Source of the DNA: Fragilariopsis cylindrus CCMP1102
Lineage: Eukaryota; Bacillariophyta; Bacillariophyceae; Bacillariales; Bacillariaceae
Reading direction: 5' to 3'
NCBI GenBank assembly: GCA_900095095.1
Contig: FMBT01000421.1
Span: 57,409 to 121,408, forward strand
Length of the DNA: 64,000 bases
The notes beneath the pieces were generated by a model. It worked only from the letters and a program-made list of their open reading frames with translations, searched no databases and had not been told where the DNA came from. A program made the translations under genes and the position numbers. Below, piece after piece: positions 2,345 through 64,000 of this stretch; within the stretch, counting starts at the first letter, position 1; each line of letters begins with the position of its first letter.

Positions 2345-4582
2345 ATGAAGACGTCTCAACAGCAATCCCAGCAATCCCAGCAATCCCATAGGATGGCAAT
2401 GGCAATGGCAATGGCATTGCCTTCATCTTCAGTCGTGCCTGGGTCATTATCATTATCATCGTGGTCACAACAAGCAAGAAATAAAATCAATAATCATATC
2501 ACAGACAATGAAAATAGTTGCAGCAGTAGTAGCAGTAACTACGGGAGTACCGCCAGCAGTAACGGCTGTTACGTTTCTGAAGGAACTCGAAATTTTAATA
2601 ATCATGAAAATATTAAAAATAATTTTCGTACAAGAGAGCAAGCACGAGTAAAAGAAGTAAAACAGCAACAATTGATAGATTTCAACATCAACATCAACAG
2701 CAACAATGAAGATGATGGCGAAGATGGTACGTCGTCGAGTAATATGGAGAAGGAAACGGAACAAATTGTTACACCTCTTATTGCTGCTTTTATTATGAAG
2801 AATGATAAGAATAATGATAAGAATGAAGTACACGTACACGCGAAACTTATGAATACGATGGAACAAGAACAAGAACAAGACGGAGAACAAGAGCAACAAG
2901 TTTCAGTATCAATACATCCACATGATGTTGTGGTTGATTGGGGTAATTCTTTTCAAGTAGATAATACCAGAAATGAATTGTATCGTGCATTGATTATGAA
3001 GAATCGTCGTGCTGCTGCTGCTGCTAGTGGTTCTACTACTGCGGAAGACAATGAAGATGATGATAATAATAGTATGAAACCATGGATAAGAAAAGTGATT
3101 GTTCAAGCAATTCATCAACGAGGATTACCACATGGAAGATTCCTTAGATCATCATTATCATTATCATCAAATGATTCAGATTCAAATCCAACTACGTCAA
3201 ATCATCATCAATCATGGACGGTGGTTTCAACTGAAGAAGCTGTTGAAGTTATTAACAAGACGTTATTTCAGAACCAAAACGAAAATGCAATAGCAGCGTT
3301 GCATGATGATAATCATAATGATCAACAAGAAGTACTACTTCCGTCATCATCTCAAACATCACGGTGCAACAACAACAACAACAACAAAAGAATCGTCGTC
3401 CGTGATGCTGACAGTGATTACAATGATGACGGTAGTTGTGATAACAACGATGACCCTTCTCCTTCTCCTCGTCCGTTGAAAAAGAGATGCATTCGTCGTC
3501 AACTACCAACAAGGAAAACGAAGAAGATCACGAAGACACATCCTCCTCAAGAGACGACGGATATCGTTATCGGTAATCGTAACCGAAAACAAACGGATGC
3601 AAAGAAAACCACAACGAAGTTCGTCTCTGTTTCGAATACGTATCCTCAAGAGATTCTAGACATCGTTAATAATCAACAGACGAGTACGGAAAATGTTACA
3701 CATTATTCGCATGTCGGTGTTGAGAACACCAATATATCGATTTCTCGTGGCCTCAAGGAAGGTTGTAACAGTAAAACAACTATTGGGAGTATGGATATGA
3801 ATATGAATATGAAAATGGAACCCGAACAAGAAAGTTCTAGTAGTATTGAACAACAACACGATGATAAGTATAACAAGGATCCGACCAATAAGAAGCATCA
3901 GAAGAAACAAGTTAATAGAAAAGGCAAAACATATTATTCATTTCAAGAACGATTACTACAACTTGCTGATTATAAACAACAGAATGGTGATTGTAATGTA
4001 CCAAAACTTTATAAGGGACATGGTAATCTTGGACATTTTGTTGGTGATCAAAGATATCAATATAAAAGATATAAAGGAAATAAAAAAAGTCCAATGACTG
4101 TGGAAAGAATTACAGCATTAGAAAAGTTAAATTTTGAATGGACATTAGTTATGTCATTTGACGAACGTCTTTCACAACTTGCACTATATAAGGAACAACA
4201 TTCTATAAATAATGACTGTAATGTACCATTTCGTTACAAGGGATACAAGAATCTTGGTAGATGGGTCCGTGAACAACGACAACACTACAAGAATTATAAA
4301 GAAAATAAACCCCGATCAATCACATTACAACAAATTATGGCATTGGAAGGATTGAATTTTGAATGGCGTCTTGATAGAACATACAAAGACCAATCACCAC
4401 CAAGAACATTGTCGTCGTTTGCATCACAACAAAAGAAGAAGAAGGAGAATATCAACAGTGACAATAATAATAAAATTGTACAAGCAGCAGTTGCTGCAGA
4501 AGAAGATGGTAGCGGTGGTCCAGGATGGCGTGATGGTTGTGGTGAATACTACGACAGCGACGATGATTGTTTGGTCTTTTAG
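2345..4582 (+). CDS. Large low-complexity protein with two C-terminal helicase-associated (HA) domains
   Basis: A single-exon frame of 745 residues. About residues 1-520 are low complexity (Gln, Asn, Asp and Ser runs, plus basic stretches such as KKRCIRRQLPTRKTKK that could act as nuclear signals). Two tandem HA-type domains (PF03457-like) follow, about residues 530-600 and 604-674. Each has the pattern F-x-ER-L-x-QLA-x-YK, a DCNVP core, a YKG...LG...V...QR helix and an ending A-L-x-x-L-NFEW. HA domains are three-helix modules known from bacterial helicases and strongly expanded in diatoms, where nucleic-acid binding is suspected but unproven. The tail is acidic and ends EYYDSDDDCLVF. Domain assignment is firm from the repeated signature; the role is unknown. 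Confidence 0.85.
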   Translation: MKTSQQQSQQSQQSHRMAMAMAMALPSSSVVPGSLSLSSWSQQARNKINNHITDNENSCSSSSSNYGSTASSNGCYVSEGTRNFNNHENIKNNFRTREQARVKEVKQQQLIDFNININSNNEDDGEDGTSSSNMEKETEQIVTPLIAAFIMKNDKNNDKNEVHVHAKLMNTMEQEQEQDGEQEQQVSVSIHPHDVVVDWGNSFQVDNTRNELYRALIMKNRRAAAAASGSTTAEDNEDDDNNSMKPWIRKVIVQAIHQRGLPHGRFLRSSLSLSSNDSDSNPTTSNHHQSWTVVSTEEAVEVINKTLFQNQNENAIAALHDDNHNDQQEVLLPSSSQTSRCNNNNNNKRIVVRDADSDYNDDGSCDNNDDPSPSPRPLKKRCIRRQLPTRKTKKITKTHPPQETTDIVIGNRNRKQTDAKKTTTKFVSVSNTYPQEILDIVNNQQTSTENVTHYSHVGVENTNISISRGLKEGCNSKTTIGSMDMNMNMKMEPEQESSSSIEQQHDDKYNKDPTNKKHQKKQVNRKGKTYYSFQERLLQLADYKQQNGDCNVPKLYKGHGNLGHFVGDQRYQYKRYKGNKKSPMTVERITALEKLNFEWTLVMSFDERLSQLALYKEQHSINNDCNVPFRYKGYKNLGRWVREQRQHYKNYKENKPRSITLQQIMALEGLNFEWRLDRTYKDQSPPRTLSSFASQQKKKKENINSDNNNKIVQAAVAAEEDGSGGPGWRDGCGEYYDSDDDCLVF

Positions 4583-23784: not shown

Positions 23785-26025
23785 ATGGCACCTTGCATGT
23801 TCTCCTTTTCTCGGCAGGGAGTTTTTGTACTCTTGTCGTTACTGCTTTTGGCAACAGGAGTAGTTACGGCAACGACATCATCGACGACATCATCGGCGGA
23901 CGATGAAGTAGCCAGTAGCAGTTCTATCATCAGTAACAACAACATGAACAAGACGTTTCTTCTTGGGGTTTCGGTTGACAACACTACGGTAGTAGTAACG
24001 GCACCGGCATCGGCAACGACGTTATCAACGACGGCGAAAGAAGATCTTGATGAAGTAGTTACAAGCACAACATTGAAAGATATTGTTTGTTCACCTTCTA
24101 TGAGCGATCAATTTTCAAGTTTGTGTAACCTCTTCAACGAAACTACTGATTTAAGGAAAAAAATAGTTAACAGCAACGACGGTATCTTTTCATCAAGACT
24201 TTCTGTTGGTAGTTCTGCTGAAATTGATTGGAAAATTAATTCCAATGAACAGTTTACGTTATTTGCACCAGTAAATACTGCATTCAATGGACAATCATTA
24301 GACGTTTTGCTTCCACCAGGTTTATCTATTGATGATTTTCTATCAACACACGTCGTGCAACGTTCTCTTTCGCCATTTGAATTAAGTCGGAATTGTGGTA
24401 CTAGTATACCAACAAGATTCAATGGTGAAACAACAAGAACAATCTGTGGTGCAAATGGTTTACCTATCTATCAAGTTGGCGAAGGAAATGTAGACGCTGA
24501 TCGACCACAATTTATTGATAGGTCTGTAATCAGGAGGTTCAATGGGTATATATATGGAATAGATAATTTTATTAGACCAAGTCAGTTTAATAATATTCCA
24601 ACAAATAGACCAACAAATAGACCACCAACAAATAGACCACCAACAAATAGACCACCAACAGAATCACAACGTCCATCATTAAGACCAACTCTTTCTCGGT
24701 GCGCATCATTATGCGAAGCAGAAGGTGCACGTAAAACTCGACTTCGTGCAGACACAACCGCCACTGATTTTGCTGAATACATCTTTGATTTTAATGTTAA
24801 CGGTAAAGCTGGTAGTACAGCTGGAAGAATCTTCGGAAACGACATCAATTGTTGGGACGTATCAGCGGTACAAAATATGCAATTTGCGTATGGTAATAAT
24901 AGTAATTCTGACAACAGGAGTTTCGAAAATCGTATTGACTGTTGGGACGTGAGTTCTGTGACTAGTTTTGAAAGCATGTTTGAAGAAAATTTGGTCTTCA
25001 ATGGAGTTATTAGTGGTTGGAACGTGAGTTCTGCAACTACTTTTGAAAGCATGTTTGCAATAAATAATGCCTTCAATGGAGTTATTAGTGATTGGAACGT
25101 GGGTTCTGCGACTAGTTTTGAAAGTATGTTTGCATTTAGTGCCTTCGATCGAGATATTAATGATTGGAACGTGAGTTCTGCAACTAGTTTTGAAGGCATG
25201 TTTGAGTCAAGTGTCTTCGATAGAGTTATTAGTGATTGGGACGTGAGTTCTGCGACAAGTTTTGGAAGCATGTTTTTTCAAAGTGTCTTCAATAGAGTTA
25301 TTAGTGATTGGAACGTGAGTTCTGCAACTAATTTTGAAAACATGTTTGGGGCAAGTGTCTTCAATAGAGTTATTAGTGATTGGGACGTGAGTTCTGCGAC
25401 CAATTTTGGAGGCATGTTTGCAGAAAATAATGCCTTCAATGGAGTTATTAGTGATTGGAACGTGAGTTCTGCAACTAGTTTTGAAATCATGTTTGCAATA
25501 AATAATGTCTTCAATGGAAATATCAGTGATTGGAACGTGAGTTCTGCAACTAGTTTTGAAGGCATGTTTGGGGACAGTGTCTTCAATGGAAATATCAGTG
25601 ATTGGGACGTGAGTTCTGCGACCAATTTTGGAGGCATGTTTGCAGAAAATAATGCCTTCAATCGAGATATTAATGATTGGGACGTTAGTTCTGCGACTAG
25701 TTTTGAAGGCATGTTTCAAGAGAATGATGCCTTCAATCGAGATATCAGTAAATGGAACGTGAAATCTGGGACTAGTTTTCAAAGCATGTTTGAGTTAAGT
25801 GTCTTCAATCGAGATATCAGTAGATGGAACGTGAAATCTGGGACTACTTTTAAAAACATGTTTCTATCCGCAAAAAAATTCAAACAAAATCTTTGTGCAT
25901 GGGGGAAGAGAATGCGGAATACAGCCTCGGTAAACAGTATGTTTAAAAACAGTGGATGCGTTAATAAAAAAACTCCAACATCTCCCTTCGCTGAATCGAA
26001 GAGATTTTGTGAAACTTGCGAGTGA
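23785..26025 (+). CDS. Secreted FAS1-like plus BspA-type (DUF285) repeat surface protein
   Basis: A single-exon frame of 746 residues. A signal peptide (VLLSLLLLATGVVTA) is followed by a Ser/Thr-rich spacer and a fasciclin-like segment with LKDIV, FTLFAPVNTAF and THVV, about residues 95-270. Then comes a Pro-Thr linker of NRPPT repeats, a CASLCEAEGARKTRLRADTT segment, and about 14 repeats of 24-26 residues. Each repeat follows W-(D/N)-V-SSAT-x-F-x-x-MF-x-x-x-x-F-N-x-x-ISD, the BspA/DUF285 pattern. Such proteins are secreted or wall-associated and are linked to adhesion. The C-terminus has three Cys and no obvious anchor. Neighbouring repeats are nearly identical at DNA level. Start context AAAATGG is good. 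Architecture is firm; ligand and function are unknown. Confidence 0.85.
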   Translation: MAPCMFSFSRQGVFVLLSLLLLATGVVTATTSSTTSSADDEVASSSSIISNNNMNKTFLLGVSVDNTTVVVTAPASATTLSTTAKEDLDEVVTSTTLKDIVCSPSMSDQFSSLCNLFNETTDLRKKIVNSNDGIFSSRLSVGSSAEIDWKINSNEQFTLFAPVNTAFNGQSLDVLLPPGLSIDDFLSTHVVQRSLSPFELSRNCGTSIPTRFNGETTRTICGANGLPIYQVGEGNVDADRPQFIDRSVIRRFNGYIYGIDNFIRPSQFNNIPTNRPTNRPPTNRPPTNRPPTESQRPSLRPTLSRCASLCEAEGARKTRLRADTTATDFAEYIFDFNVNGKAGSTAGRIFGNDINCWDVSAVQNMQFAYGNNSNSDNRSFENRIDCWDVSSVTSFESMFEENLVFNGVISGWNVSSATTFESMFAINNAFNGVISDWNVGSATSFESMFAFSAFDRDINDWNVSSATSFEGMFESSVFDRVISDWDVSSATSFGSMFFQSVFNRVISDWNVSSATNFENMFGASVFNRVISDWDVSSATNFGGMFAENNAFNGVISDWNVSSATSFEIMFAINNVFNGNISDWNVSSATSFEGMFGDSVFNGNISDWDVSSATNFGGMFAENNAFNRDINDWDVSSATSFEGMFQENDAFNRDISKWNVKSGTSFQSMFELSVFNRDISRWNVKSGTTFKNMFLSAKKFKQNLCAWGKRMRNTASVNSMFKNSGCVNKKTPTSPFAESKRFCETCE

Positions 26026-49469: not shown

Positions 49470-49860
49470 TATATTATATTTATTTATTTATTGTCGTCGT
49501 CGTCGGAAACAGACACAACTTTTTTTGAGGGGGGAAGTAAGTTAAATCAAGTCGAGTCACACAAATAAAGCTGTCGTATGTGGTCTGTAATAAGGATCTG
49601 CTGCTGCCTTTTCTGATAGCTTTAGCAGAGTTCTGATCTTCTTCTTTTTTTAAATTGATTATTGGCTTGCCATTGGAACGCACATACATACACAATTGCT
49701 TACGAGAGTGAAAGGAACGAAGCAAGAAAGCAAATACTAATAATGAAATTGTCATTTGCACATGCACGTGTGCACACATCCTGCCTTGCCAGTTTCAAGA
49801 TTCCCGCGATGATGTTAATTGACTGTTAAATTTTTCATTAAGCCCCATGTAGCGCGGGAG

Positions 49861-50322
49861 TGGCACAGGATTTTGTTAGATGAATTACAAGGTGTTTCAC
49901 ACGCACAAATATATTAACTTGAACTTTAATTGATTAGAATTATTTAATACCGGAAAGTGTACACTAGTGTTCACCTTTAGAAAGGGGGGGTCTGCCCGGC
50001 GACCGGAGTCGCCAAAAATCGCCATCTGTTAAAAACAGACAATAGTTTCCAGAAAGATGCCAGTCTTTCTGTCTAAAGCATTTCGTCAAAGATAGTGTTG
50101 TCAAAGTAGATATATTTGAAAAGCCCCCGGCTGTATAAATACAACCTTCCCCGCAGGGCCAGCTTTGACAAGGAGAGGTAGTCCTCGTCCTCGTCATTGA
50201 ATCACCAATCGGATGCCTAATCCGTTCAATCATTCAATTTCAATCTAGCTTCGGAACAGATCAGTTTCGTCAAGTTTAGTAAAACTAGAATCCTTTGAAC
50301 GAATCCAAAATCATCTCAATCC
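49861..50322. repeat. Split direct repeat B2 (462 bp), outer copy
   Basis: Starts TGGCACAGGATTTTGTTAGA and ends TCATCTCAATCC. I see no difference from 50,593-51,054; both contain the same 89-codon frame without a domain. It forms the element's 3' boundary on the minus strand. Confidence 0.93.
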
Positions 50323-50340
50323 AGGGTGGGTGGGCGGGAA

Positions 50341-50592
50341 AATAAAAATCGTACAATAGATTCGGCGGATACAGTTCTGATCTGGAATTGTATCTTATAA
50401 TCTTGCTGATTAACTGACTCTAGTCCAAGGGTAAGCTTGTTGTATTAACCTTGATATTTCAAAGTTGTGAGGATAACAGCACCTTGATAAATTCCAATCG
50501 TCAAGACGAGACGCATTGGTTCCAAATGTTTGTGTGGTTCACCTTGATATTTCGTCTGGCCTTGTCCCGTACCATCGTAGCTTTCGCATGTT
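50341..50592. repeat. Split direct repeat A2 (252 bp)
   Basis: AATAAAAATCGTACAATAGA ... CTTTCGCATGTT, identical as read to 60,241-60,492. It directly abuts the inner 462-bp repeat at 50,593. Confidence 0.93.
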
Positions 50593-51054
50593 TGGCACAG
50601 GATTTTGTTAGATGAATTACAAGGTGTTTCACACGCACAAATATATTAACTTGAACTTTAATTGATTAGAATTATTTAATACCGGAAAGTGTACACTAGT
50701 GTTCACCTTTAGAAAGGGGGGGTCTGCCCGGCGACCGGAGTCGCCAAAAATCGCCATCTGTTAAAAACAGACAATAGTTTCCAGAAAGATGCCAGTCTTT
50801 CTGTCTAAAGCATTTCGTCAAAGATAGTGTTGTCAAAGTAGATATATTTGAAAAGCCCCCGGCTGTATAAATACAACCTTCCCCGCAGGGCCAGCTTTGA
50901 CAAGGAGAGGTAGTCCTCGTCCTCGTCATTGAATCACCAATCGGATGCCTAATCCGTTCAATCATTCAATTTCAATCTAGCTTCGGAACAGATCAGTTTC
51001 GTCAAGTTTAGTAAAACTAGAATCCTTTGAACGAATCCAAAATCATCTCAATCC
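50593..51054. repeat. Split direct repeat B1 (462 bp), inner copy
   Basis: Identical as read to 49,861-50,322. Followed inward by the plus-strand gene's 5' flank. Confidence 0.93.
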
Positions 51055-51720
51055 CCCTCCCGACATTTATACTTCATCAAATCGTGCACCATCCGGTAAC
51101 TCATACCTGATCAAGGAGTCAGCCTCTTTCAGTATTCCAAAGCCTGGTGCATGATCCACATTGGTAAGACTTTAGTGCGTTTTTAATGCACTCGGTGTCT
51201 TGCCAACCCGATAACAAAACTCGTCTTTTGTTTCCCTTTTCCTTATTTTGTAATCGAAATTATTTCTTCGCTCGCCCTTCTCTCTGTTTTTCAACGTGTC
51301 GCATCTATTCCTTGTCGCGGCATGGCGCGCGCTCCACGATCGGCTCTCTCCTTTTCTTAACTTCCTTTTGGTCGCGCGTGTGACTGAAACAATATGAATT
51401 TCTTTTATTTCATTCCACGCTCTTCACAAAATCTTTTCAAAACGTGTCTTATCCGTTTTTTCCTGTTCGTTTCCTTTTTTGCCTGGACAGTGATCATTCC
51501 GTTTCATGTTTAGAACCAATTTCGTAAACCACTCCGATACTGGGTGATAGGACAGCACTCGGGATTTTCCATGGCCTGTTTCCTACTTCCTTCATCGTAA
51601 TTTTCCTCCTTTCCTTTTTCTCACAATCTCAAAACAAACTACATTCGAAAGCCAACTTTCGATTTGTTTGCTACTTCTCCTGTATTATCGTTTCCAATTC
51701 TTTTGCTTTCTAACTTCAAA
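51055..51720 (+). promoter_or_regulatory. Internal flank between repeat B1 and the plus-strand element gene
   Basis: About 670 bp, pyrimidine-rich on the plus strand (TTCCC, CTTTTCC and TTTTT tracts) without a long frame. It must carry the leader of the plus-strand gene and, on the minus strand, the 3' untranslated end of the main transcript. Confidence 0.35.
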
Positions 51721-52500
51721 ATGGTTGACAACGGTTCCAAAGCAATTGCCTATGAACTCATCGATGCCGTTGACGTTCCTTCTTCTGTCGAGCAGGGCCT
51801 CGTCAACGATGCGACAACTCGTTGTGCTTCCCAGAAGAGCGAGCTCTTGAAGGATTCCAGTGCTCTTGTTGCAATTGCAACAATTATCACTGCTGACAAG
51901 GCGAAGCTGCTGCATGATGAGACTAGTCGTGACCTCCTTCGGACGAAAATGGACGAGCGTCGCGACTCCCGGAATGATTCCAAAATGGTGTTGGACAATG
52001 CCGAGTCAACTCTCGCGGACGGCCGTCGTCTGAACTCTCAAGTTATCAAGAGGTTCCTCAAACGGCACAAGATGAAGCACTGGTCACGAAAACGCCGCAA
52101 GTTGTTTGTTCCTGCTGTTAAATTGTTGACTGACATGATCTCAAGTCCGGGACCTTTGTCTCGACAGATTCGGTGTGATAACACAGGCCTGTCGCCTAGG
52201 TGTCATACGGTTGGTCCATCCCTGGATCGTTTAGTAGCTGTCGGTGCAGTTATTATGAGCGGGGGCAACAATGAGCTTACCTGGGAGCTTTCTCCGGAGT
52301 TCATTGCAGAGTTGGTCGTGAAGCCTGTACCTCCTCCAAAAGAACCTGTAGTGTATTCTTCTGGCTCCGATTCGTCTCAAAATTCCAGCGGCTCTGGTTC
52401 TTCTGACGACGGTTCCTCTTCTGACTCCTCTAGCGAAGGTTCCTCTTCTGATTTCTCTCGCTCTTCTGACGACGAGGAATCCGAGGATGACCAAGAATAA
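51721..52500 (+). CDS. Antisense accessory gene of the retrotransposon: winged-helix-like protein with acidic Ser tail
   Basis: 259 residues from the ATG at 51721 (AAAATGG context; a further in-frame ATG at 51664 adds 19 hydrophobic residues). It lies on the strand opposite to gag-pol and converges on the recombinase frame, with 158 bp between stops. Residues about 1-110 are charged and helical. A basic patch follows (VIKRFLKRHKMKHWSRKRRK). Then comes a stretch with winged-helix spacing, LLTDMISSPGPLSRQI ... TGLSPRCHTVGPSLDRLVAV, GAVIMSGGNNELTWELS: helix-turn-helix, then a hairpin. The last 60 residues are Ser/Asp/Glu repeats. This suggests DNA binding plus an acidic activation- or histone-mimic-like tail. 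It is uninterrupted, unlike gag and pol. No homologue is known to me, so function is inference. Confidence 0.65.
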   Translation: MVDNGSKAIAYELIDAVDVPSSVEQGLVNDATTRCASQKSELLKDSSALVAIATIITADKAKLLHDETSRDLLRTKMDERRDSRNDSKMVLDNAESTLADGRRLNSQVIKRFLKRHKMKHWSRKRRKLFVPAVKLLTDMISSPGPLSRQIRCDNTGLSPRCHTVGPSLDRLVAVGAVIMSGGNNELTWELSPEFIAELVVKPVPPPKEPVVYSSGSDSSQNSSGSGSSDDGSSSDSSSEGSSSDFSRSSDDEESEDDQE

Positions 52501-52658
52501 CAGGTTGACTGTCCGTAATCGCAAACAAAAGGATGTTATGAAGGAATTGCTATTGAACTCGAATGTGACACTGATACAGAATCACGATCATAGAAGAATA
52601 GTTTTTTAACATATAATAGTTATCACTTTTATTTGAAATATTGGAAACACGTATTGCT

Positions 52659-53768
52659 CTATGGCAAATTAGCCGAGAACCGCGTTAGAGCCAGTACTGA
52701 CACTCTGGCATCGGTGTATCGTTCCATCATTGATCCACCAGGGGTTAGACCTTTGGCTCTACACAGCTTCCTCCAACGATTGTTTGCTTCTATGACATCT
52801 TGTGGAATTTGTGCATTTTGTGCCTCGGATGTCGCTCCTCGTCGTAACGATCTGTAGACACTGAATTCCTCATAAACTTTCACGGTATCCGCTAATACCC
52901 GTGGAAATTGTCTCTGAACATCCAGCAAAATTGCATGTAAATACTCATCCATTTCAGCAATGGACATGCGCTTTCCGTTGCGGCCTAGGAACATGGGTCC
53001 CTTGACCATTCCTTCCTGCCCCTGGATGTTCAACAACCGATTGAACCATTTCTCAATGTTTCTTCCTCCTTTTGTCTTAGACACCAACGGTTGGCAAAAC
53101 AATTTCTGTCCGATTTCATTTTTGAATGTGCCAGCCAGCATCAATGGAATATGTGGATGCGCCTCATGAGTGACCGCCTCCGTCCAATGCTTTCGCATTG
53201 CACCTACGTCTACTCTGTTGATTTCCTCTCCTCGTAATGCCGCGTAATATCCTGCAATGAGGATACACGCTGTGGTACTTACACTCTTTCTACCGACCGG
53301 ATCATTCTCGAACGTTTTCCACTTCGTTTCTAACACTTCGAAGCTGCTGCTCAGTTCGTACTGACTCAGAGCTCTATCCGGCATCCATACGTCTCCCATC
53401 CGCCGATGAACTCCTATCATAAACCTTTTAAACCAGAGTTGATTTGTCTTGGAGTTGGACACCGATGCTCCAGTGCCATCATCCTTGACGAACGTCGATC
53501 CTACTCCTCCTTGGCACGTATGTACAAAGTTGGAGTAAAACGACCGTTGCTTCCTCAACGTCTCGTATTGAATGGTTGCTGCGTTCCTTCCTGGGTCCTT
53601 GGATCGCATCAACATGCCGCAGGCGATCGCCATGCCCCACACGTCTCGTGGTGGATGTGGTCCCCTTGGAGGCAAACACTCTCTTTCGAAACCTAGTTCC
53701 CTCTGATTCGAATGAAACTTCTTGCCCTCCAATCGTTTGAATTCACTGTTGATCTTTCTCTTGCCCAA
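52659..53768 (-). CDS. Tyrosine recombinase domain of the retrotransposon polyprotein
   Basis: A 369-codon open frame without its own ATG (first codon TTG). It is the C-terminal part of the pol polyprotein, entered by a frame change from the preceding frame near 53,770. Numbering from 53,768: Arg179 in ALRGEEINRV is the first catalytic Arg; YRSLRRGATSEA (305-316) is the second box; Trp332 (NNRWRK) fills the His/Trp position; Tyr351 (MMERYTD) is the nucleophile. In the second box the expected His of HxxR is Arg306. The N-terminal half is SAM-like and helical, as in phage-type recombinases. The enzyme would integrate the circular DNA intermediate by strand exchange. Confidence 0.85.
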   Translation of the reverse strand: MGKRKINSEFKRLEGKKFHSNQRELGFERECLPPRGPHPPRDVWGMAIACGMLMRSKDPGRNAATIQYETLRKQRSFYSNFVHTCQGGVGSTFVKDDGTGASVSNSKTNQLWFKRFMIGVHRRMGDVWMPDRALSQYELSSSFEVLETKWKTFENDPVGRKSVSTTACILIAGYYAALRGEEINRVDVGAMRKHWTEAVTHEAHPHIPLMLAGTFKNEIGQKLFCQPLVSKTKGGRNIEKWFNRLLNIQGQEGMVKGPMFLGRNGKRMSIAEMDEYLHAILLDVQRQFPRVLADTVKVYEEFSVYRSLRRGATSEAQNAQIPQDVIEANNRWRKLCRAKGLTPGGSMMERYTDARVSVLALTRFSANLP

Positions 53769-56700
53769 AAACTATCCAACGTCGCTCTCTTAATACACAC
53801 CAAAGCCAAAGCATCGATCGAATTGGTCGCTGCTGGCAGCCTTTTAGTGATGTTGAAGAAATGACAGTCTGGACATTGAAAAGGAGTCATGAGATAGTCT
53901 CCCTCCCTTGCTTCCTTGAACCTCATGGGGTCATCGTCCTCGAGAGCGCTCTCGTCCATGAGTGAATCGTCGAGGTCCTGCACCTGTAGGACTGGGAACT
54001 TGTCTTGTTCGTCCTGCACGAAGCAGGATCCATGCCAAGCATTTCTGCATTCCTTGTTATCGTTCTTGCGACAACCAAAATTTCCGCATATGATTCCTGA
54101 CATCTCGGGGATTGTCCCCATCGCATTTCACGCAAATTTCCTTTCCACGTCGACACTCGATTAAGTCTTCCTGCTTTCCAAGGTCTGGACGATAATAAGG
54201 GGCGAACAAAGCAATCGTTAGTGGTTCAAACATGTCCTTCTCCCAAGTCCCATTCTCCGTCGCTTTGATTGTGAAGCTTGTGTCGGCCAGTTTTCCCAGT
54301 TGCTTTCGCCAGTACCCTGTCATCAATGCCGGACAAACGAAGACATGTTTCGAATTCGGAAAAATGTGTTTCGCCTCGCACATTTGCTCCACCGCAACCT
54401 TGGCCAGCGCAGGTGGCGGAGCCCATATCCATGCTCCATTAGGATCCTGGAACACGCCATGGAACCAATCGGCCGTGGTGGCTACTTTCCAATCGTCCGT
54501 GACCAGCCATCCCTGTATACGACTCCTTCAGCTTAGGGTCTCTGTCGAAGGCGGTCTCATTCAGAGGTAAGTAAGGTAGAAAATCTTTTCCCGACATCAC
54601 TCCACTTGAAAGTTTCCCCTTGACATCCATCTGTCCCTTTGGCAATCATTCTCTTTCCCGCGATCCACACAAAGTGAATTATCAAATCACCTTCCATTTC
54701 CATCTTTCGTAATCCCAATATCAATTGATGAAGTTTTGAATTATTGGACGATCCTCTAAAGTATGTGCGTTCTGCAACCATGTTGTCGGTGAACACCCAA
54801 ACTTCCGATCCTTTGGCAATTCTCCTGATGCAACCATTCGCTTCAACCGGATGACTAAATTCCCTGCCTCACGAAGTTTGATGATTCTCCTTCCGTGACA
54901 GCCTTGCTCCAATTGCCCAAAATCCGCATGCACTTCGTCGGTTCCTTCCACCAACTGGAAGATCCGAATCCAGCTCCTGATGCGTCCCTACTAAATACAT
55001 TGCATGCTTGTGCTTTTGATCGAATAGGAACGTCAGGTGGATGTTTGTAACACGTTAATTCCAATAGCGCTTGCATGTCGTGCTTCAGCCGTGGCACCAC
55101 GTCGACCCACTTTGGAGCCTTCTCTCTCTTGTACTTCTTGTTGTTCACTTGTGGCCTGCGTTTCATCTCTTTCCAACCCTCTTTATCTCGGTCAGACCTC
55201 CATGAATTCAACGTGAGGTATATTCCCTTAAGATAAGGGATCAATGTTGTGTAGGTCATAGACACGTACACTATGAACCCCACGTATTGTTCTGTGGTTT
55301 TGAAACGTATCTTGCCCTCTGGTGTCTCCTCTGCTCTTGACTACCCGCTCCAACGTCTTCCTCCGTGAACTCGTCTCTCAGTCCGACTTGGTGAGCGATC
55401 CACCTTATCTTCTTCTGTAACTTGTTCCACCGTTCTTGGGTTACGCCTTTTGTCACCACATCTCCGTCTGAGGCTATAGTAGCTCCTGCCCACGCCCCTG
55501 GTCTCTGACTTTGAGGTCTACGTTTTCTTGCAGCGTCTTGCAACCCTAAATGACACAGTGTCTTCGCGGTTCGACTGCTGCATTGCCACGCCAATTCTTT
55601 TGTAGCTGCTATGATTCTCATATCGTCGACGTACTGTGCAATGTCTGAGGCTGATTTCCATCTCTCCGCATTTTCATGATCCATGGTAGTGAAGGATCGT
55701 ATTCCTGTGTACCAGGAAGATTTTCAATCACCCTATCCATTGAAAAGGATTGTTCTCATCTGCTGGATCTCCTAGTGCGATGTGTTTCGCCCGCAACGCT
55801 CCTTGGACCGACGCATACGGTGAGCTTCGCAATCCCATGGCGTTTCGCAACCATCTTGCGACCATCACGCTGGCTTCTCCCCCTTTCATATTTGGATATA
55901 GTTGAGTGAGGTCGATTCCGCAATACTTTTGCCATGAGCGTGAAGTGGAAAATTGAGGAACATATCGCCATAATCATTATCTGCCAGCCATGAACCGGCT
56001 ATCACCCACCTAGACATGGCGTCAATGGTGGGTAAACTAAACCAAGGTGCCCACAGCGCATTGTTTAATCCAGACTTGGAACCATCGTATACCATTCGGA
56101 TGTCATCTCCTTTTGGTACATGAAACATATACATATACGCCTCGATTTGCTTGATGTCTACCAGATCCACATAACCCTTCATCATTACACTGTCTACTTT
56201 CTTCTTCACCTGCTCTCTTATTTTATCATCGTCGTACGGTGGTTGACGATCGCTGTTGGATGGAGGATCCGTATCGAACATTGGAAGGAGACCTTCTCTG
56301 ACGACATCTTGGTAGTCGGGAGGCCATCTCCAGAAGAAGATAGTAGATCCTCGTTTCCATTCCCACCACGAAGTTTCTGCTGCTTTCGCAACCGAGGCTT
56401 CGCCAGCTACTTTTATCGCTTCGTGATCCTTATGCTGCTTTCCTACCCGTTCAAACCAATCATGAAAACTCTTCTTGACGAGGTGTTCCAATATTTTGAC
56501 GCTGCTTTTCTCAACATTCGCAACATCCTGTTTCAATTTCAACCTGTCCAACGGGACGTCAACATCCAACTTTGGTTGTGTTGTAGCGGGTCGTCGACCT
56601 GGACTGCCATCTTTCTTTTGAGTTGGTGGGGGATTCTTGTAGTCAGCTGATTTCCAAAATTCCCCCAGCTTACTGGCTATCCTGTCGTTCCATAAATGAT

Positions 56701-57766
56701 ACGGGATGGACGCGCCATCCGACCTCGTAGCCTTGTCTTGGTCATGCTCTTTACTAGGATCACTCCATTCTCCCATTTTCCATACGTATTCCTCACTCTC
56801 GTCTTGTTCTGCATCCTCCTCGACTGTGCTTACTTCGACTTCCGACACCTCGGCTTCTATGGGTGCGTTGACTGGATCCGCTCGATTGCGCTTCGTCCTC
56901 CTGTCTTCACATTCACTTGCTGTCGTGTCCCTTGTCCTTTTGCCGGAGGCCGGCCTTCGCCATGTGTAAGAAAATACATGCTGGCGACTATCACTTTTCC
57001 TGGTACTTCGTTTTCTATCAAGAGGTTTAAATCCTCCTCTATCATTCGATTTGTTCGTGTATCCGGGAAATCTAATACTCGCGCTTTTTCTTTCCTAACA
57101 TTGATCTAATCACTCCCTCTTCCTGGCCGAAATATTGAAGTAAGTGTGAATCCTTCCACTTCGATTTCCCCATTCCAATAACCCACGCGATGAGTTAATT
57201 TGGTTGTTCTCTGGTTTAACCACATCCCTTCCGGATTGCATGTTATCCAAAGCTTCACCCAGTTTTCCTGACACGCTTGGTTGAGCGATCGGAGTAATTT
57301 GCGTGCATGCAATTGTTAGATCGAATCTCCACCTGAAACTCTCCATCTGTTACTCCTCCAACTTCATGATGGTGTATCGAATATGTGCATTTCTCTACCC
57401 ATCCATCTGGGAGCGTGACTTTGGCCTTCTTGCTTCGTCTCCTTTGTTTCACGTGTACTCGGACGGCGACTGTCAAGCTAGCCATGCTCCATATAGGAAT
57501 CGTCAATGCAGGCAACTGCCTTGTACCAAAATCGCTTCTACATCGGTCATGCCTTTCCCTTCCATCGCATCGCCAATCCATGGAGGATCGTGCTTGGTAC
57601 ATCCTCGCGGTTGCTTCGGACTTCGCATCCACTGCACGCTTCCTATCGCACCGACGTGCCACATCCATGTCGAATAGCGATTCGATATGATTCCTAACTT
57701 TACTGTAGCTTTGATCAGCGATACTTCAGCTCGCTCTGCTATGTAGTTGTCTCCTTCCACATACAT
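53693..57766 (-). pseudogene. Frame-disrupted pol region: reverse transcriptase, RNase H and linker
   Basis: A succession of minus-strand frames covers one polyprotein. 56,848-55,886: N-terminal RT region with FHVPKGDDIRMVYDGSKSGL, LPTIDAMSRWV and DYGDMFLNF. 55,930-55,730: CGIDLTQLYPNM and RSSPYASVQGALRA in another frame. 55,684-55,271: AQYVDDMRIIA, the YxDD catalytic site. 55,283-54,855: PYLKGIYLTLNSWRSDRD and DASGAGFGSS. 54,954-54,557: RNase H with VFTDN and FVWIAGKRMIAKGTDG, over two frames. 54,455-53,693: PNGAWIWAPPPALAKV, then a Cys-rich linker (CRKNDNKEC ... FQCPDCHFF). Frames 57,766-57,110 upstream are unassigned. Adjacent frames continue each other, so single-base indels rather than missing segments separate them. 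Confidence 0.75.
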
Positions 57767-57919
57767 TTCTTCTGTTGTCGATCAATCGTCTTGGCTTCTC
57801 GGCCTGTCCGATCTAAGTCACGACCCTGAAGGATCACTAGTACTACTCTCCTCGCTTGCCCTTTTCTGCCTCTCGGCGGCTAGCTCCTTTTCCTTCTTCT
57901 TCTTCGCTGGACTTGGTTC

Positions 57920-60230
57920 TCATCCCTTCTTTTGCGCTGCTGTCAGTGCCTGATTGGCTTTCTTTGATACCGCATCCAGTTCCTTTTTCAAGAATTCAAT
58001 TGTCTTAGTGTATTCCGATTTCATCACTGCGGATGCCTGCAAGTGTTGATTTAAGACGTCCACTACTGCACTGTGTCCTGATATGTCCTTGGCCAAAATC
58101 GCTGCTTGTGCTTTACCTCCTTTGAAACATGACCAGACGATTTCATGAATCTCGGTCGCTGAGTTTCCCTCATATCGTTCTTCTGCTAGCTTTTCAAAGA
58201 TTGCATTTACTGCTTGCGAAATATATTTCCAATTGTCCGTTTCCGTTGCACTTCCGTGCTCTTGTTTCATGGTGATGTTGGTCACTGTCATCCAATTCAT
58301 CAAGTCGTTTACGAAACCATGTGCATCATTTATACATTCTTTTGCCACATTCTTTGCCTCTCCCGTAAGTAGCTCTCCAGCTTGGCCTCTCAGACTCCTC
58401 ACCTGTTTGTCCAATGCCTTCTTCATCTTCGACTTGAAAGACGTGGACGGTATTCCCGAATCGAACTTTTGGGCGTCATGGCCATCGGTATCATCCTTGA
58501 ATCAGTATCAGCTTTCGCTGTTCCGAATACCTTCGGGAGACTCGAGTCGAAAGATCCCATGAATGCCGCATCTACCTCTCCGTGGTAACCTGCTTTCTTC
58601 GCTATTGCTTTGTACTCCATGGTCCTTGTCAACGATCCTCCGGCAAGAGTGCTATCCAATAAGATCATACCCATCAACCCCAACGCATCTGGAAAAAGAG
58701 TGTGGATCGATGTCTTGCCTTTGACTAAATTCTCCTCTTGTCCTCGAACGTTCAATTTTAACCACGCCTGCAATTCCCTCTTCGTGTTAAACCGCACGCC
58801 TCCTACGTCGATTACAGTGTCATCCAATTGTTCCTTAATGGTCGCTACCTCATGTTGGATCGTTCTCACGGATGCCATGAGCTGCTCCATGGATTCCGTA
58901 CTCCCAGGTTGGTCTTCTGCTTGATTGTGTTCTAGCGAAAGTCCCTGAAGTCCCATTCCATATGATGGCGAAGCTGGTTCTGGTGCTCGTTCATTCAGTC
59001 GAAAATCAAACCTAGCATGTGATTGCTGTTGAGTACGTGGTGCAGCCGCCACTATCGAATTCAACTTGGCTTCCAACATGTCTAATTTTGAAGCCAGTTT
59101 GTCTCCGTACACTTGTGGCCTGGCAGTTAGTCCCTCCCTCGAAGTCCAGTGCTCGAAGAACGCTTCTGGCACCTTGAATCGGTCATTTATTCCTTGGCGT
59201 AGTTGCGACACCAATTGGCTCGTGAGTATAGACAAATCGGATCCATTGATGGCGACCAGGGTTCTGAACGTTTCCACTTCCGAATCGGTCATTTGCGTTT
59301 TTCGCTCCGCTAGGAGCTGCATCACTGACTTCTCTTCTTCTCCTTCACTCCTCGTTCCCACGATTTGTGTCAGATTGTGTACTGATTCCATGACCGACAG
59401 CGGCCCCATTCCTTCTTGACGGGTCCCTACCAAATTTCGCAAACTTACTAGACTCCTATCTGTCTGGTCAGACGGATAGCTCAACTGGTTCATTTCCGTC
59501 TTCTTAACCTTCTTTGTCAAGAATCCCATCTGGGCGTGCAAATCATCGATCGAGTTCGAAATATCTTCCTGAGACTCTGCACCTCCATCTTCGATACAAC
59601 GTGTGTTCACAAATTGACCGAAGGTGTTATACTCTTCTTCAAGGAGCCTGTGGTCGATAGTCCGTTTCTTTGGAGATGCCGATCCCCCGGATGATTCTCT
59701 CTCCTGTGCTATCGCATCAGCATCGTCTGCCGCAAGTCTGACGTCTTCTTTATCTTTCACACCCTGTTTGATGGATCTGAAGAACATGTCCCAGTTATCA
59801 ACCGTACGCCTTTCGTTGGCGTAGGTCTCTTGATCAGCCTTGAAACATTCCACTGGAACTATATGTGACAAGTAAGCTTGGTCCTGTTGAAGTCCCACTC
59901 CCATCAACACATATTGTCCAGACGCCGACTGGCGATGCGTAACGAACGGTGCCTTTAACTTCTTATGACATTGAACATCACACTTATCCTTTGCTTAATG
60001 CACATCTTGGACCCACCTTCTCCTCCGATCTGGCCTCCACAATACTTCGTCGGCAACTCTTTTTCACAAATGAACACAAGCGAACAAAGGCCAGTTACAC
60101 AAACCCCCCCCTCGGACGTACCTTTAGGAGTAGACACCGGCACATTTGCCAGTGCCCCTCCCGCTATGAACCCGCTCTGGCCTGACGAGGCCAAAGGCGA
60201 CTCAAAATTAATGTTAAAATTGCGGTCCAT
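57920..60230 (-). CDS. Gag-like region of the retrotransposon, frame-disrupted
   Basis: The first ATG (60,230) lies 10 bp inside the A1 repeat. It opens a 91-codon frame with a Cys-rich start (MDRNFNINFESPLASSGQSG ... KYCGGQIGGEGG). After a frame change near 60,000 the main 495-codon frame (59,910-58,423) follows. It contains charged helical sequence, for example MDEEYN-like acidic regions and long coiled stretches such as EQLMASVRTIQHEVATIKEQ. A third frame (58,426-57,920, 168 codons) continues it. Its ATG overlaps the stop as ATGA, but the better reading is a frame change near 58,500, because the alternative frame through HDAQKFDSGIPSTSF joins smoothly. The C-terminal part is coiled coil (SEYTKTIEFLKKELDAVSKK). 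The particle-forming role is inferred from position. Confidence 0.65.
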
Positions 60231-60240
60231 GATACACTAG

Positions 60241-60492
60241 AATAAAAATCGTACAATAGATTCGGCGGATACAGTTCTGATCTGGAATTGTATCTTATAA
60301 TCTTGCTGATTAACTGACTCTAGTCCAAGGGTAAGCTTGTTGTATTAACCTTGATATTTCAAAGTTGTGAGGATAACAGCACCTTGATAAATTCCAATCG
60401 TCAAGACGAGACGCATTGGTTCCAAATGTTTGTGTGGTTCACCTTGATATTTCGTCTGGCCTTGTCCCGTACCATCGTAGCTTTCGCATGTT
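60241..60492. repeat. Split direct repeat A1 (252 bp), 5' end of the element
   Basis: Identical as read to 50,341-50,592. On the minus strand it forms the element's 5' terminus just ahead of the gag start. Confidence 0.93.
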
Positions 60493-61061
60493 GTAGGCGA
60501 GCACAAAGATCTTTTTATTTAACGGTTATTATTTATTTTTTGTTCTCTTTCTTACCAATAATTCACAGAGACTTAAAAGATATTTTATTTTTTGTACAAC
60601 GCAATGCAGCAATGCATCTGGGCCTGGTGATCTTGACGTCGTCAGTAATCATCTGGGCCTTGTGATCTTGACTTCTCATTGCGATTTGTGCATGTCGCAC
60701 ATGTGCTACAGAAACCAACAGTTAAGCAAGTCTTCGCCCCGCCCCCTTTCTGAAATATTTTTTTGGACATGACAAAGAACAAGAATCGAATTCGCGAATC
60801 AATCCCAAATGATGTCAATCGTGATTGATTCATTGATTGATGAAGGCAATCATCATTTGCTTGATTGATGCATGCCGTGATTTGAAATCTAGAAAGAATT
60901 CACAGAATAATTCACGTCTATTCGCATCACCTTTTATGACACAAATTCTTTTTTTCTAAGATAAAAGCATACTAGTACCCCATGCCATCACAATCAGAAC
61001 GCTTGAAAGGACAATAGATCAGACTTCTAGTTAGCTGTCATAGCTAGTGACGTCAAAAATA
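60493..61061. other. Intergenic between the element and the acyl-CoA dehydrogenase gene
   Basis: CATCTGGGCCT(G/T)GTGATCTTGAC is duplicated at about 60,616 and 60,651. TGATTGATTCATTGATTGATG repeats lie near 60,825. No supported frame. Confidence 0.5.
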
Positions 61062-61258
61062 ATGTTCTCAAAACACCGATTTATATATTGTACATTATTT
61101 GAGTCGTCATAATCGTCGTTGTAGCACAGTGGTAACGGCGACGACGGCGACGACGACAGTAGGATCAACATCATTACAAGCTACTACTACAAGTCCTAAT
61201 AAAACTGTACTATTACACAAACCATCATCACGATATAATACTCTTCGTTACAATTATC

Positions 61259-62787
61259 GTGCATTTTCTTCATCGCCGTCATCTTTCTTCTTCGTTTTCT
61301 TCTGGAGAAATAACGCCATCTCCTCCACCTCCACCTCCATCTCCTCTTCCTATAACATCATTTACCGAAGATGAAATAATGATACAAGAAGCTGTTCGAT
61401 CATGGTCCAAACAAGTATTAAATCCAATCAAGGTACGTCAAATGGACAATGAATCAAAAATATGTCCAATAGTTTTAAAGGATTTATTTACACAAGGATT
61501 TATGGGTATTGAAATTGATCCAGAAAAGTATGATGGTGGATCCGGATTATCATTTACATCGTCCTGTATCATAATAGAAGAACTAGCAAGAATGGATCCC
61601 AGTATTGCTATTCTAGTCGATATACATAATACCTGTATCATCAATGCCATCCGATGTTGGGGTTCGAAACAATTAAAAAAACAATTTTTATCGAAATTAG
61701 CTACAACTTCGGTATCCTCCTTTTGTTTAAGTGAATCCGAGAGTGGTTCCGATGCCTTTAGTTTAAAGACAACTGCCATTCAATCGAAAAAATCGAAAGC
61801 TGAAAAATCGAAGTCGAATGATAATGAATCCTATCATTATATAATTAATGGTACTAAAATGTGGATATCCAATGCAAAAGATGCATCTACGTTATTAGTG
61901 TTTGCGAATGTTGCACCATCATTAGGATATAAAGGTATAACAGCATTCGTATTAGACGTCAATGATTATGAGCATATCCTTCTGAATAATGATAATAGTA
62001 ATGATAATGATAGTAGTAATAATAATAATAGTAAGAAGAAGAATGGTACTATAACAATTGGTATACCAGAAAAGAAATTAGGTTTAAAAGCAAGTTCGAC
62101 CTGTACCATACATTTTGAAAATGTAAAAATTCCATCATCACAAATATTAGGGGAAATTGGTTTCGGATATAAATATTGTATCGAAATATTAAATGAAGGA
62201 CGGATTGGTATTGCTGCACAACAACTTGGTATAGCAAAAGCATGTTTGTATGATATTGCCTTGCCCTATATGAAAGAAAGAAAACAATTTAATACATCAA
62301 TTAGTGAATTTCAGGTAAGAGAAGAAACATAAACGTAAATGTACATTATATTGAATATAGGACTAGTATATATTGTATCGTAGTAACGAATATCAATGCG
62401 TCGGTTATATGATTTATTTCTCATCCTCTACCTTTTTTTCTCGTTTTTTTTTTTTCCTATACTGTGTATCGTATTGTATAGGGTATGGAACATCAGTATG
62501 CACAAATTGCTACCGAGATTCATGCCGTGGAACTGATGACCTATAATGCCTGTCGACGAAAAGAACATGGTATGCCATTCATTAAGGAAGCAAGTATGGT
62601 CAAATTATATTCCGCACAAATAGCTGAAAAAACGGCATCGAAAACAATTGAATGGTTAGGTGGTATCGGATATACACAAGATGTATTAGCTGAAAAATTC
62701 TATAGAGATTGTAAAGTTGGTTCGATATATGAAGGTACAACGAATATAGAATTACAAACTATAGCAAAATTATTACGATCCGAATAA
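61259..62787 (+). CDS. Short/branched-chain acyl-CoA dehydrogenase, mitochondrial; N-terminus uncertain
   Basis: Exons up to 62314 and 62482-62787 (GTAAGA donor, GTATAG acceptor, phase 0). The flavoprotein oxidises short or 2-methyl-branched acyl-CoA to the enoyl-CoA in beta-oxidation or isoleucine/valine breakdown. Evidence: YDGGSGLSFTSSCIIIEELA, SSFCLSESESGSDAFSLKTT (FAD/substrate loop), INGTKMWISNA, ILGEIGFGYKYCIEILNEGR, and exon 2 with EASMVKLYSAQIAEKTASKT, IEWLGGIGYTQDVLAEKFYR, and the catalytic Glu in IYEGTTNIEL. Similarity is closest to the ACADSB class. A Lys/Ser insertion and an Asn/Asp run break two surface loops. The frame starts at a GTG at 61259 without an ATG. Either an intron from 61,091 links the ATG at 61,062, or an indel near 61,290 links a presequence-like frame (RYNYRAFSSS). 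Confidence 0.85.
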
Positions 62788-63054
62788 ATAATTATATATG
62801 TACTCATACTAAAAATCAAAAGGAAACAAAAAAGTCATAATATGAAAAAAGCATACTAGAAAACAAGCTAATACTACTACTGTTCTACCGTAACTGCGAT
62901 AATAAGATTACTTCATGATAATATCACGCAAGATCTTATCTTTTTCTGATTTATATAATGTTAGTGTGTTTGTTTTGGTATATCTATATATCATTCATGC
63001 CCTTCAATTCAACTTTACCTGTCTATGTTCAATTCTATTGTTTTTCTTTTTGTA
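62788..63054. other. 3' flank of the acyl-CoA dehydrogenase gene
   Basis: AT-rich, no feature seen. Confidence 0.3.
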
Positions 63055-64000
63055 AGCCTACTGGTATCTCACAATGTAGGCTCACACACAGCACACATCA
63101 TCTTTTTATGAGATATCATGTTCAGGACACAAAGCAGGGTAGAACTTCCAAGAAAATGCTTCTTACCATGTGTGTAACAAATAATGGTTCCAAAATATGC
63201 TGTAGGTGCTCTTTCAATTCATGCACACATTTGTGTACTATGACTAGCGTTAAAATGCACAATGTTACTAGTTAATTTCTTGCGGCTATTATGCTTGCCA
63301 GAAAAATTTTCTTGAAAATATAGTTATGTAACCCAATTTGTGTTTAGTCTTAATACATCTGCCAGACAACATTAGTGAACAGGGGTTTACTTTCTTCGCC
63401 AAGGGCCAAAAACCTATTTTTACCCTATATTAGCTAAAATCCACTAACATTATTTTGCGCAAGGTTTACCATGTAAACCAGCGCCCTATGAATGGGGATT
63501 TTAGATGGGTTAGTTTATTTTGTGAGTTTTGTGTGGATTTTTCTGTCAAAATTGTTGTGTGAGCATTTTCCAACCAACAGTGAGTATTTTAATTATGGTC
63601 CTCGATTGCTTTTATGAGATATTTTTGAAAATAGGGGTAAACTACAATTACATCCAAAAGAATAGTGGGTTGGGATGATTATGCTTTCCATTCACAAGTA
63701 ATATGTCCTAGTGAGGACAATACATCAATTCTGTGTTCTAATTTACCTGGTGGTGTGTGAAGATAAGGATATATCTTACTGTGTAGTGTGGGATGGCCTG
63801 TTTATTTCTTTTTTTAATATAATAAATGGCGGTAACAAATACAAGCTGTATTGGTTTATCTTAGCAAAAGTAGTATGGAGATGGTTAGTTGGTGTTTCAG
63901 TGGGTATGTTTTGAAGTTCATTTCTATTTCACTGTTGTGGAAGGAAAAACAACATCAAGATCTTGATCAGAAATGAAACCACAAAATATCTCAATAAGAG
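63055..64000. repeat. Dispersed repeat related to the 46-kb satellite-like region
   Basis: CTGGTATCTCACAATGTA, then GGCTCACACACAG, at about 63,060 matches 46,040-46,080. GATCAGAAATGAAACCACAA, then AATATCTCA, at the right edge matches the start of the 46-kb units. The interior is AT-rich with no supported frame. The repeat continues past the window. Confidence 0.65.

Follow-up and report, generated by a model that had tools for sequence, protein, structure and literature searches.

The window, by which we mean the whole stretch of 64,000 nucleotides that was analysed, comes from Fragilariopsis cylindrus CCMP1102 (GCA_900095095.1, FMBT01000421.1, positions 57,409-121,408 forward) and is part of the contig here called C565. 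The genome searched comprised 67.9 Mb in 818 contigs. A retrotransposon of 10.6 kb occupies positions 49861-60492 and has the minus-strand order A1-gag-pol-YR-B1-A2-B2, where YR is the gene of a tyrosine recombinase. A further frame lies between YR and B1, reads in the opposite direction and ends tail-to-tail with YR at a spacing of 158 bp; we call it the accessory gene. Papers are cited by PMC accession. The features are, from the start of the element's gag side:

60241..60492, no strand: repeat A1, 252 bp, same as A2
57923..59994, minus strand: frames at the gag position, gag by position only
54057..57725, minus strand: pol region, interrupted, with gaps peculiar to the window copy or its assembly
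52659..54121, minus strand: DIRS-type tyrosine recombinase (YR) gene and preceding Cys-rich region, fragmented in the window copy
52501..52658, no strand: gap that separates the convergent accessory gene and YR; over 157 bp its identity to three sister copies is 99.4-100%
51721..52500, plus strand: accessory gene of 259 aa with a helical N-terminal half, a C-terminal winged-helix-like domain and an acidic Ser/Asp/Glu tail; an open frame with relatives at 10 places
52096..52338, plus strand: winged-helix-like domain (residues 126-206), the best conserved part, whose profile weakly matches Vfr (C-terminal part) and CRP
51330..51720, plus strand: upstream, promoter-like stretch, from a three-way alignment and local shuffle scores; the box AAACCACTCCG...TACTGG starts at 51526
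50593..51054, no strand: repeat B1, same as B2
50341..50592, no strand: repeat A2, same as A1
49861..50322, no strand: repeat B2 and the element's left end, same as B1

Repeats A1 and A2 are 100% identical over 252 bp, and B1 and B2 are identical over about 460 bp. The window element has the split direct repeats of the PAT and Ngaro type (A1-[genes]-B1-A2-B2), a plan described for those elements (PMC4157794, PMC8547959). In the second of the two subfamilies distinguished below, the C529 element has an identical B pair, and a single B copy was found in the stretch read from C414. The YR frames (519 and 522 codons) are conserved, carry the pattern LRRGATSEA...RW...Y, which we take to resemble the recombinases of DIRS elements, and have no significant Pfam match. 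They open with a conserved Cys/His-rich, finger-like region that is followed by the recombinase core (L044:6529-8085, L040:5288-6853), again with no significant Pfam match. The pol frames contain a YVDD motif, recognized by eye, and are presumably reverse transcriptase (RT) by this motif, with no significant Pfam match. Upstream of the RT part (L040:6699-9998 on the minus strand and L044:2959-6021) are stretches HHEVGGVTDG and RTLTIQEQARVLDFP, also unmatched by Pfam, which we take to resemble the C-terminal part of C5 DNA methyltransferases. A DAM-like methyltransferase (MT) domain, the mark that separates PAT from Ngaro, has no Pfam match in pol; because RT and YR are unmatched as well, this result does not show that MT is absent.

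The original prediction held that an intact opposite-strand gene of 259 codons belongs to the element, between the recombinase and the terminal repeats, and the ATG frame at 51721-52500 (+) is present as claimed. ATG frames of at least 259 codons did not occur in any of 300 dinucleotide shuffles of the element (mean 144 codons, largest 251). The frame does not overlap YR, from which positions 52501-52658 separate it, and reading it as the shadow of an opposite-strand gene was therefore rejected. Homology gives stronger evidence than the shuffles: a genome search with the protein and two relatives located matches at 10 places, none of which (0/10) has an internal stop. Four are subfamily 1 frames (C565, which holds the window, C384, C210 and C478; 97-100% identity), and two are subfamily 2 frames (C529 and C414; 96% identical to each other and 20-22% to subfamily 1). 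The remaining relatives lie on C46, C88 and C164, which we call the solo locus, and on C91, where the frame is fused to a MYND-finger gene. These 10 places are not 10 independent loci, because C46, C88 and C164, at 99.3-99.5% identity across 5-9.7 kb, represent a single locus, and because C565, C210 and C478 have a common right flank.

We compared the distribution of the accessory frame with that of the element's other genes. The YR search returned 12 rows, of which nine make up six elements (four of subfamily 1 and two of subfamily 2) and three are short or decayed fragments on C279, C580 and C84. The accessory frame lies beside YR, in the same place and on the opposite strand, in all six elements with a substantial YR. 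While the YR proteins of the two subfamilies are 66-67% identical, the accessory frames are about 20% identical. The pol search returned 33 rows and adds C279 (87% to subfamily 2), C580 (decayed) and 39-residue scraps on C494 and C538. On C279 and C580, where YR matched over only 34 and 75 residues and the flanks were unread, the genome search gave no accessory-frame match. Relatives outside F. cylindrus were sought in IMG/VR (with the protein, its alignment and two YR alignments) and in prokaryote genomes (with one YR alignment), no eukaryote collection being covered, and these searches found none.

Simulated random substitution at the observed divergence (2000 runs, gaps ignored) left the frame free of stops in 0.1% of runs for C529/C46, 0.4% for C46/C91 and 0.2% for the window/C529. 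For near-identical pairs, 79% and 68% of the simulations stayed stop-free, and such pairs are therefore uninformative about retention of the frame. The frame is a real gene, kept as a coding frame across copies and subfamilies. Conservation in other copies was one of the checks on which the original prediction had been staked, and since the frame is open at every one of the places found, a lack of conservation in other copies is excluded.

It had also been claimed that the frame stays open while gag and pol are broken, which is true of the window copy. The gag, pol and YR frames of C384 are long (772, 1021, 270 and 519 codons), and in C210 and C478 long frames occur beside interrupted ones, with fewer interruptions in pol than in the window copy. 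YR is a single 519-codon frame in C384 and C210 and is split into two frames in C478. In each of two pol segments of 1.7 kb, the window copy differs from every one of the three sister copies by 11-13 one-base gaps but by only 5-8 mismatches. Based on these gaps and the long C384 frames, many of the breaks are particular to the window copy or its assembly, and so, largely, is the contrast between a broken gag-pol and an intact accessory gene.

The surroundings of these copies were also compared. The right flank of the element (window 60493-64000) is identical on C210 and C565 and near identical on C478, while the left flanks of C565 and C210 differ. To the left (window 49633-49862), C648 is homologous up to the element's edge and then continues, element-free, into other sequence; it is apparently an unoccupied site. 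One or more of these contigs may have been misjoined at the element, or the assembly may have collapsed.

We next consider the flanks of the accessory gene. The start contexts are AAAATGG, ACCATGG and ATCATGG, that is, ATGG with an A at position -3, in five copies that represent both subfamilies and the solo locus. Over some 300 bp upstream, subfamily 2 shows about 72% identity to the solo locus; the local score is 228, where shuffles reached at most 42. Between subfamilies 1 and 2 the score is 47 and the maximum of 300 shuffles is 46; between subfamily 1 and the solo locus it is 34, which 14 of the 300 shuffles reached. The box AAACCAC(TC)CG...TACTGG lies 195, 204 and 202 bp upstream of the ATG in the window, C414 and C46, respectively; the three-way alignment places it in register in all three clades, and the pairwise alignment of the two subfamilies set the window box against a neighbouring stretch. 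A weak similarity of subfamily 2 to the solo locus (64%) continues for about 165 bp downstream of the gene and is lost before the end of YR. Because the similarity to the solo locus extends on both sides, the common unit consists of the upstream stretch, the gene and the downstream stretch. From the upstream alignments we infer a putative promoter of the accessory gene's own, between B1 and the gene.

An operator-like repeat array common to the subfamilies was not seen. A dense TTAATGATT array lies about 0.55-0.8 kb upstream of the gene in C529 and was considered as an array of binding sites; we rejected it because it is inside an insert with terminal inverted repeats (L040, about 3504-3912) that is nested in C529 and absent from C414. 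Separately, C306:91949-92177 and C83:318314-318542 carry a 79% copy of part of the accessory upstream stretch, and the gene itself is unmatched on both contigs.

The protein has a C-terminal domain with 15 of 81 columns invariant across eight rows. Searches of Pfam, NCBIfam and winged-helix families with the accessory protein gave no significant match, and when the PDB was searched with a profile of the C-terminal 80 residues, the best matches were five Vfr chains (E 0.37-0.42, profile positions 12-56), which are not significant and are followed by dihydrolipoyl dehydrogenases (E 0.5). The matched C-terminal part of Vfr is presumably its helix-turn-helix (HTH). A PDB profile of the whole protein matched two unrelated chains only (E 0.31 and 1.8). 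In a local profile test on 245 sequences (CRP, MarR, 43 window frames and 200 shuffles), 139 of which scored, E. coli CRP came first (10.8 bits), and MarR, with 2.7 bits, came fifth, two shuffles and one window frame scoring higher; CRP was chosen for this test after the Vfr match was known. When hhalign was applied to 105 members of the set, including 60 shuffles, CRP was again first (probability 42%), followed by MarR (7%), and the best shuffle reached 5%.

Structure prediction with AlphaFold from a single sequence gave pLDDT values below 50 for residues 135-237 and an unusable mean of 49.5 for the domain, together with a long N-terminal helix (residues 21-115) at moderate confidence. A crude, family-averaged estimate of secondary structure gives helix in the N-terminal half and nothing clear in the domain. 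The single PHROGs match was weak (E 0.0035) and linked the helical half of the protein from subfamily 2 to a family of unknown function. The winged helix of the original prediction thus has the HTH part of Vfr as its top profile match in the PDB (E about 0.4), but neither a significant Pfam match nor a confident AlphaFold model, and we consider it probable that the C-terminal domain is a winged helix. The basic patch (residues about 110-127) and the long acidic Ser/Asp/Glu tail that had been described are present in the window protein, but they are features of subfamily 1 only; both are absent from the subfamily 2 and solo proteins, which end in a short acidic tail. DNA binding and self-association of the accessory protein are putative properties.

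The accessory gene changes faster than its neighbours. Between subfamilies 1 and 2, dN is 0.26 for YR, 0.34 for pol, 0.73 for gag (silent sites are saturated) and about 1.1 for the accessory gene. Its dN/dS is 0.53-1.44 in six pairs within subfamily 1, 0.83 for C529/C414, 0.75 for C529/C46 and 0.90 for C46/C91 (solo versus fused); values of 0.23-0.57, where computable, between subfamily 1 and the solo and C91 relatives have a dS of 1.9-4.9 and are saturated. The purifying selection for which the original prediction had proposed a dN/dS test did not emerge, either within subfamily 1 or in the wider unsaturated pairs (0.75 and 0.90). The reading frame thus persists through rapid amino acid change, and strong purifying selection is not supported.

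These changes are unevenly distributed. The C-terminal 80 residues are better conserved in six of six wide comparisons (for example, 50% versus 32% in C529/C46). Among the variable codons of subfamily 1, the C-terminal domain has 1 replacement and 3 silent changes, against 15 and 3 elsewhere (Fisher p = 0.046, with domain boundaries fixed beforehand). Eight variable codons of subfamily 1, all replacements, cluster at codons 47-61 (p = 0.00035 for clustering). The accessory frame of the window copy differs from that of the three sister copies by 8-11 mismatches per 780 bp (1.0-1.4%), compared with 0-1 per 1142 bp (0-0.1%) for YR (p < 0.001 each). The N-terminal half, as read from these alignments, is evolving very fast.

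Rapid change of this kind could reflect an arms race in which the protein counters the host's silencing of the element or otherwise interacts with the host. The accessory gene is the fastest-evolving of the element's genes between the subfamilies, the replacement cluster at codons 47-61 falls in it, and it outpaces YR even among sister copies. However, seven of the eight clustered codons changed in one copy, C478, so that one conversion, or one assembly event, could account for them; fast evolution also fits relaxed constraint, and no host partner is known. We regard an anti-silencing or host-interaction factor as rather unlikely. The values of dN/dS near 1 in several comparisons would also fit a frame that has no function, or whose only function is as a convergent antisense RNA; in Dictyostelium, antisense transcription of DIRS-1 (PMC5633606) and its control by RNAi (PMC4482531) have been reported. 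A frame without a protein function is highly improbable, however, since all 10 places are stop-free, the start context is common to the copies and the probability of remaining stop-free is 0.001-0.004 in the wide comparisons.

We then examined the relatives outside elements. Five stretches of 5.5-10 kb around the relatives on C46, C88, C164 and C91 were searched by tblastn with pieces of gag, pol and YR from both subfamilies; at E 0.01 the only match was to the subfamily 2 accessory protein, which had been included as a positive control. At the solo locus, the gene is accompanied by the upstream stretch and by about 165 bp of the downstream sequence. On C91, the relative forms the C-terminal part of a 684-codon open frame on the minus strand (L052, C91:885000-894999), in the earlier part of which lies a MYND finger (PF01753, E 1.3e-8). 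The best other genome match to the C91 frame is on C265 and covers positions 33-393 of a 419-residue query, ahead of the added part. The C91 frame is, from this layout, a candidate host-retroelement fusion gene.

Such relatives could also mean that the accessory gene is a passenger, a host gene captured and carried by the elements without a role in transposition, with the solo locus as its host ancestor. This reading would account for a solo gene that has both flanks and no trace of gag, pol or YR in 5.5-10 kb, and for the second relative fused to a MYND-finger gene. The order of relatedness argues against it, as the solo and C91 relatives are 39-45% identical to subfamily 2, closer than subfamily 1 is (about 20%), and retention in both subfamilies, whose YR proteins have diverged to 66-67% identity, argues for use by the element. 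We consider a captured passenger very unlikely. With both host-side relatives closer to subfamily 2 than the two subfamilies are to each other, they would most simply derive from subfamily-2-like elements; compared with capture of a host gene, escape from an element is the simpler account, although the tree has few branches. A retrocopy origin of the solo locus is not supported, because no poly(A) was seen where the downstream homology ends. A gene that evolves far faster than the adjoining YR and has relatives outside the element, one of them fused to a MYND-finger gene, is therefore a tractable case of the escape of a retroelement gene into the host.

In our favoured explanation, a lineage of DIRS-order retrotransposons carries the frame as an accessory gene, which encodes a DNA-binding regulator of the element's own transcription; we predict this from the arrangement and the protein's features, and we put the chance that the explanation holds as a whole slightly below even. 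The accessory gene would be transcribed against gag-pol from its putative own promoter between B1 and the gene, and its transcript would end tail-to-tail with YR. The product would be a helical, probably self-associating protein with a C-terminal winged-helix-like, predicted DNA-binding domain, acting in the nucleus as an element-encoded transcription regulator. By binding the element's own repeats or linker, the regulator would set the balance between the convergent antisense and gag-pol transcripts.

In favour of the regulator, we counted the presence of the frame in 6/6 elements with a substantial YR, its freedom from stops at 10/10 places and in only 0.1-0.4% of simulations, the common ATGG context, the upstream identity between subfamily 2 and the solo locus, the box, the conserved domain and the five Vfr chains at the top of the PDB matches. 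Against it, we counted the lack of a significant winged-helix match, the AlphaFold value of 49.5 for the domain, the failure to see an operator-like array in common between the subfamilies, the solo/fused dN/dS of 0.90, the upstream comparisons of subfamily 1 (within chance for the solo locus and barely above shuffles for subfamily 2) and C279 and C580, which are without a frame match.

The regulator reading draws on arrangement, which is like that of antisense accessory genes in plant LTR elements and of HBZ in HTLV-1; the likeness is one of arrangement, not descent. HBZ is a bZIP protein. It acts in the nucleus and its gene lies antisense in a retroelement (PMC11963269), so that it resembles the predicted product by arrangement, and it differs in belonging to a retrovirus. 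In plants, antisense additional ORFs (aORF-3R) of LTR retrotransposons include the TRP28 proteins of Retand, GENE23 of Grande and those of RIRE2; like the accessory gene, they are extra genes between pol and the 3' repeat, antisense to gag-pol and kept in most copies of some families, with DNA binding predicted for TRP28 and nuclear localization and an own promoter reported for Grande (PMC11963269, PMC7264820). In contrast, the elements that carry them are of the Ty3/gypsy LTR type, have a DDE integrase and occur in flowering plants. Here, an antisense gene between pol and the 3' repeats is kept in 6/6 elements with a substantial YR, with no match in C279 and C580. The TRP28 domain (PF04195, of the Retand family proper) had no Pfam match in our sequences at E up to 1.

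Closer in class are elements of the DIRS order, and Cafeteria, in which one of them occurs, is a stramenopile. Ngaro has been reported there, and Ngaro and PAT elements have the same A1-[ORFs]-B1A2B2 split direct repeats and a YR in place of an integrase, but their described genes are gag, RT-RH, YR and sometimes MT, without an antisense accessory gene (PMC4157794, PMC3783388, PMC8547959); this comparison is limited by pol and YR frames here that have no significant Pfam match. Amphibian Ngaro elements carry an extra gene after YR, for an SGNH hydrolase, but its frame overlaps others, whereas the gene here is antisense and separate and has no hydrolase match (PMC9210276). Kangaroo of Volvox is likewise an algal DIRS-order element with an opposite-strand gene, but the inverted gene is the YR itself, whereas here YR follows the direction of gag-pol and a separate gene is inverted (PMC4157794). 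In the available portions of the literature searched, with subscription journals thinly covered, we found no description of an antisense accessory gene in a DIRS-order element, and the terms sought were absent from PMC6681497 and PMC3266345.

The same position in the element would suit a protein that assists recombination. Winged-helix Xis proteins assist phage integrases, and the accessory protein could by analogy help the element's YR on the A/B repeats of circular cDNA, in an architectural role or as a directionality factor. The gene has YR on one side and, on the other, the repeats that YR has to act on; it is found in all six elements with a substantial YR, and a DNA-binding protein that changes quickly together with its sites would fit about 20% identity beside a YR of 66-67%. 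On the other hand, the gene runs against YR and has its own upstream region, its relatives persist without a trace of YR in the stretches read, and the gene lists of the DIRS order (gag, RT-RH, YR and sometimes MT) hold no such factor in the portions available (PMC3783388, PMC4157794). Taken together, a recombination factor appears quite unlikely.

If the favoured regulator is expressed and binds DNA, this would suggest independent origins of antisense regulatory genes in YR retrotransposons, plant LTR elements and retroviruses, and the poorly understood DIRS order would gain a candidate self-encoded regulator. A bolder version, to which we assign only a small probability, would make the antisense winged-helix gene a switch of the element, acting on transcription from the repeats or on the direction of YR recombination, that has escaped to the host twice, once as the solo gene with its flanks and once as the tail of a MYND protein. 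If this were true, the host would have gained element-derived DNA-binding factors.

Two further features were noted. A tandem repeat with units of about 190-204 bp adjoins the subfamily 2 element of C414 (L042, 715-1438). Elsewhere in the window, positions 23785-26025 hold a 746-codon frame whose start is presumably fasciclin-like and is followed by many repeats of the kind DWNVSSATSFESMF.
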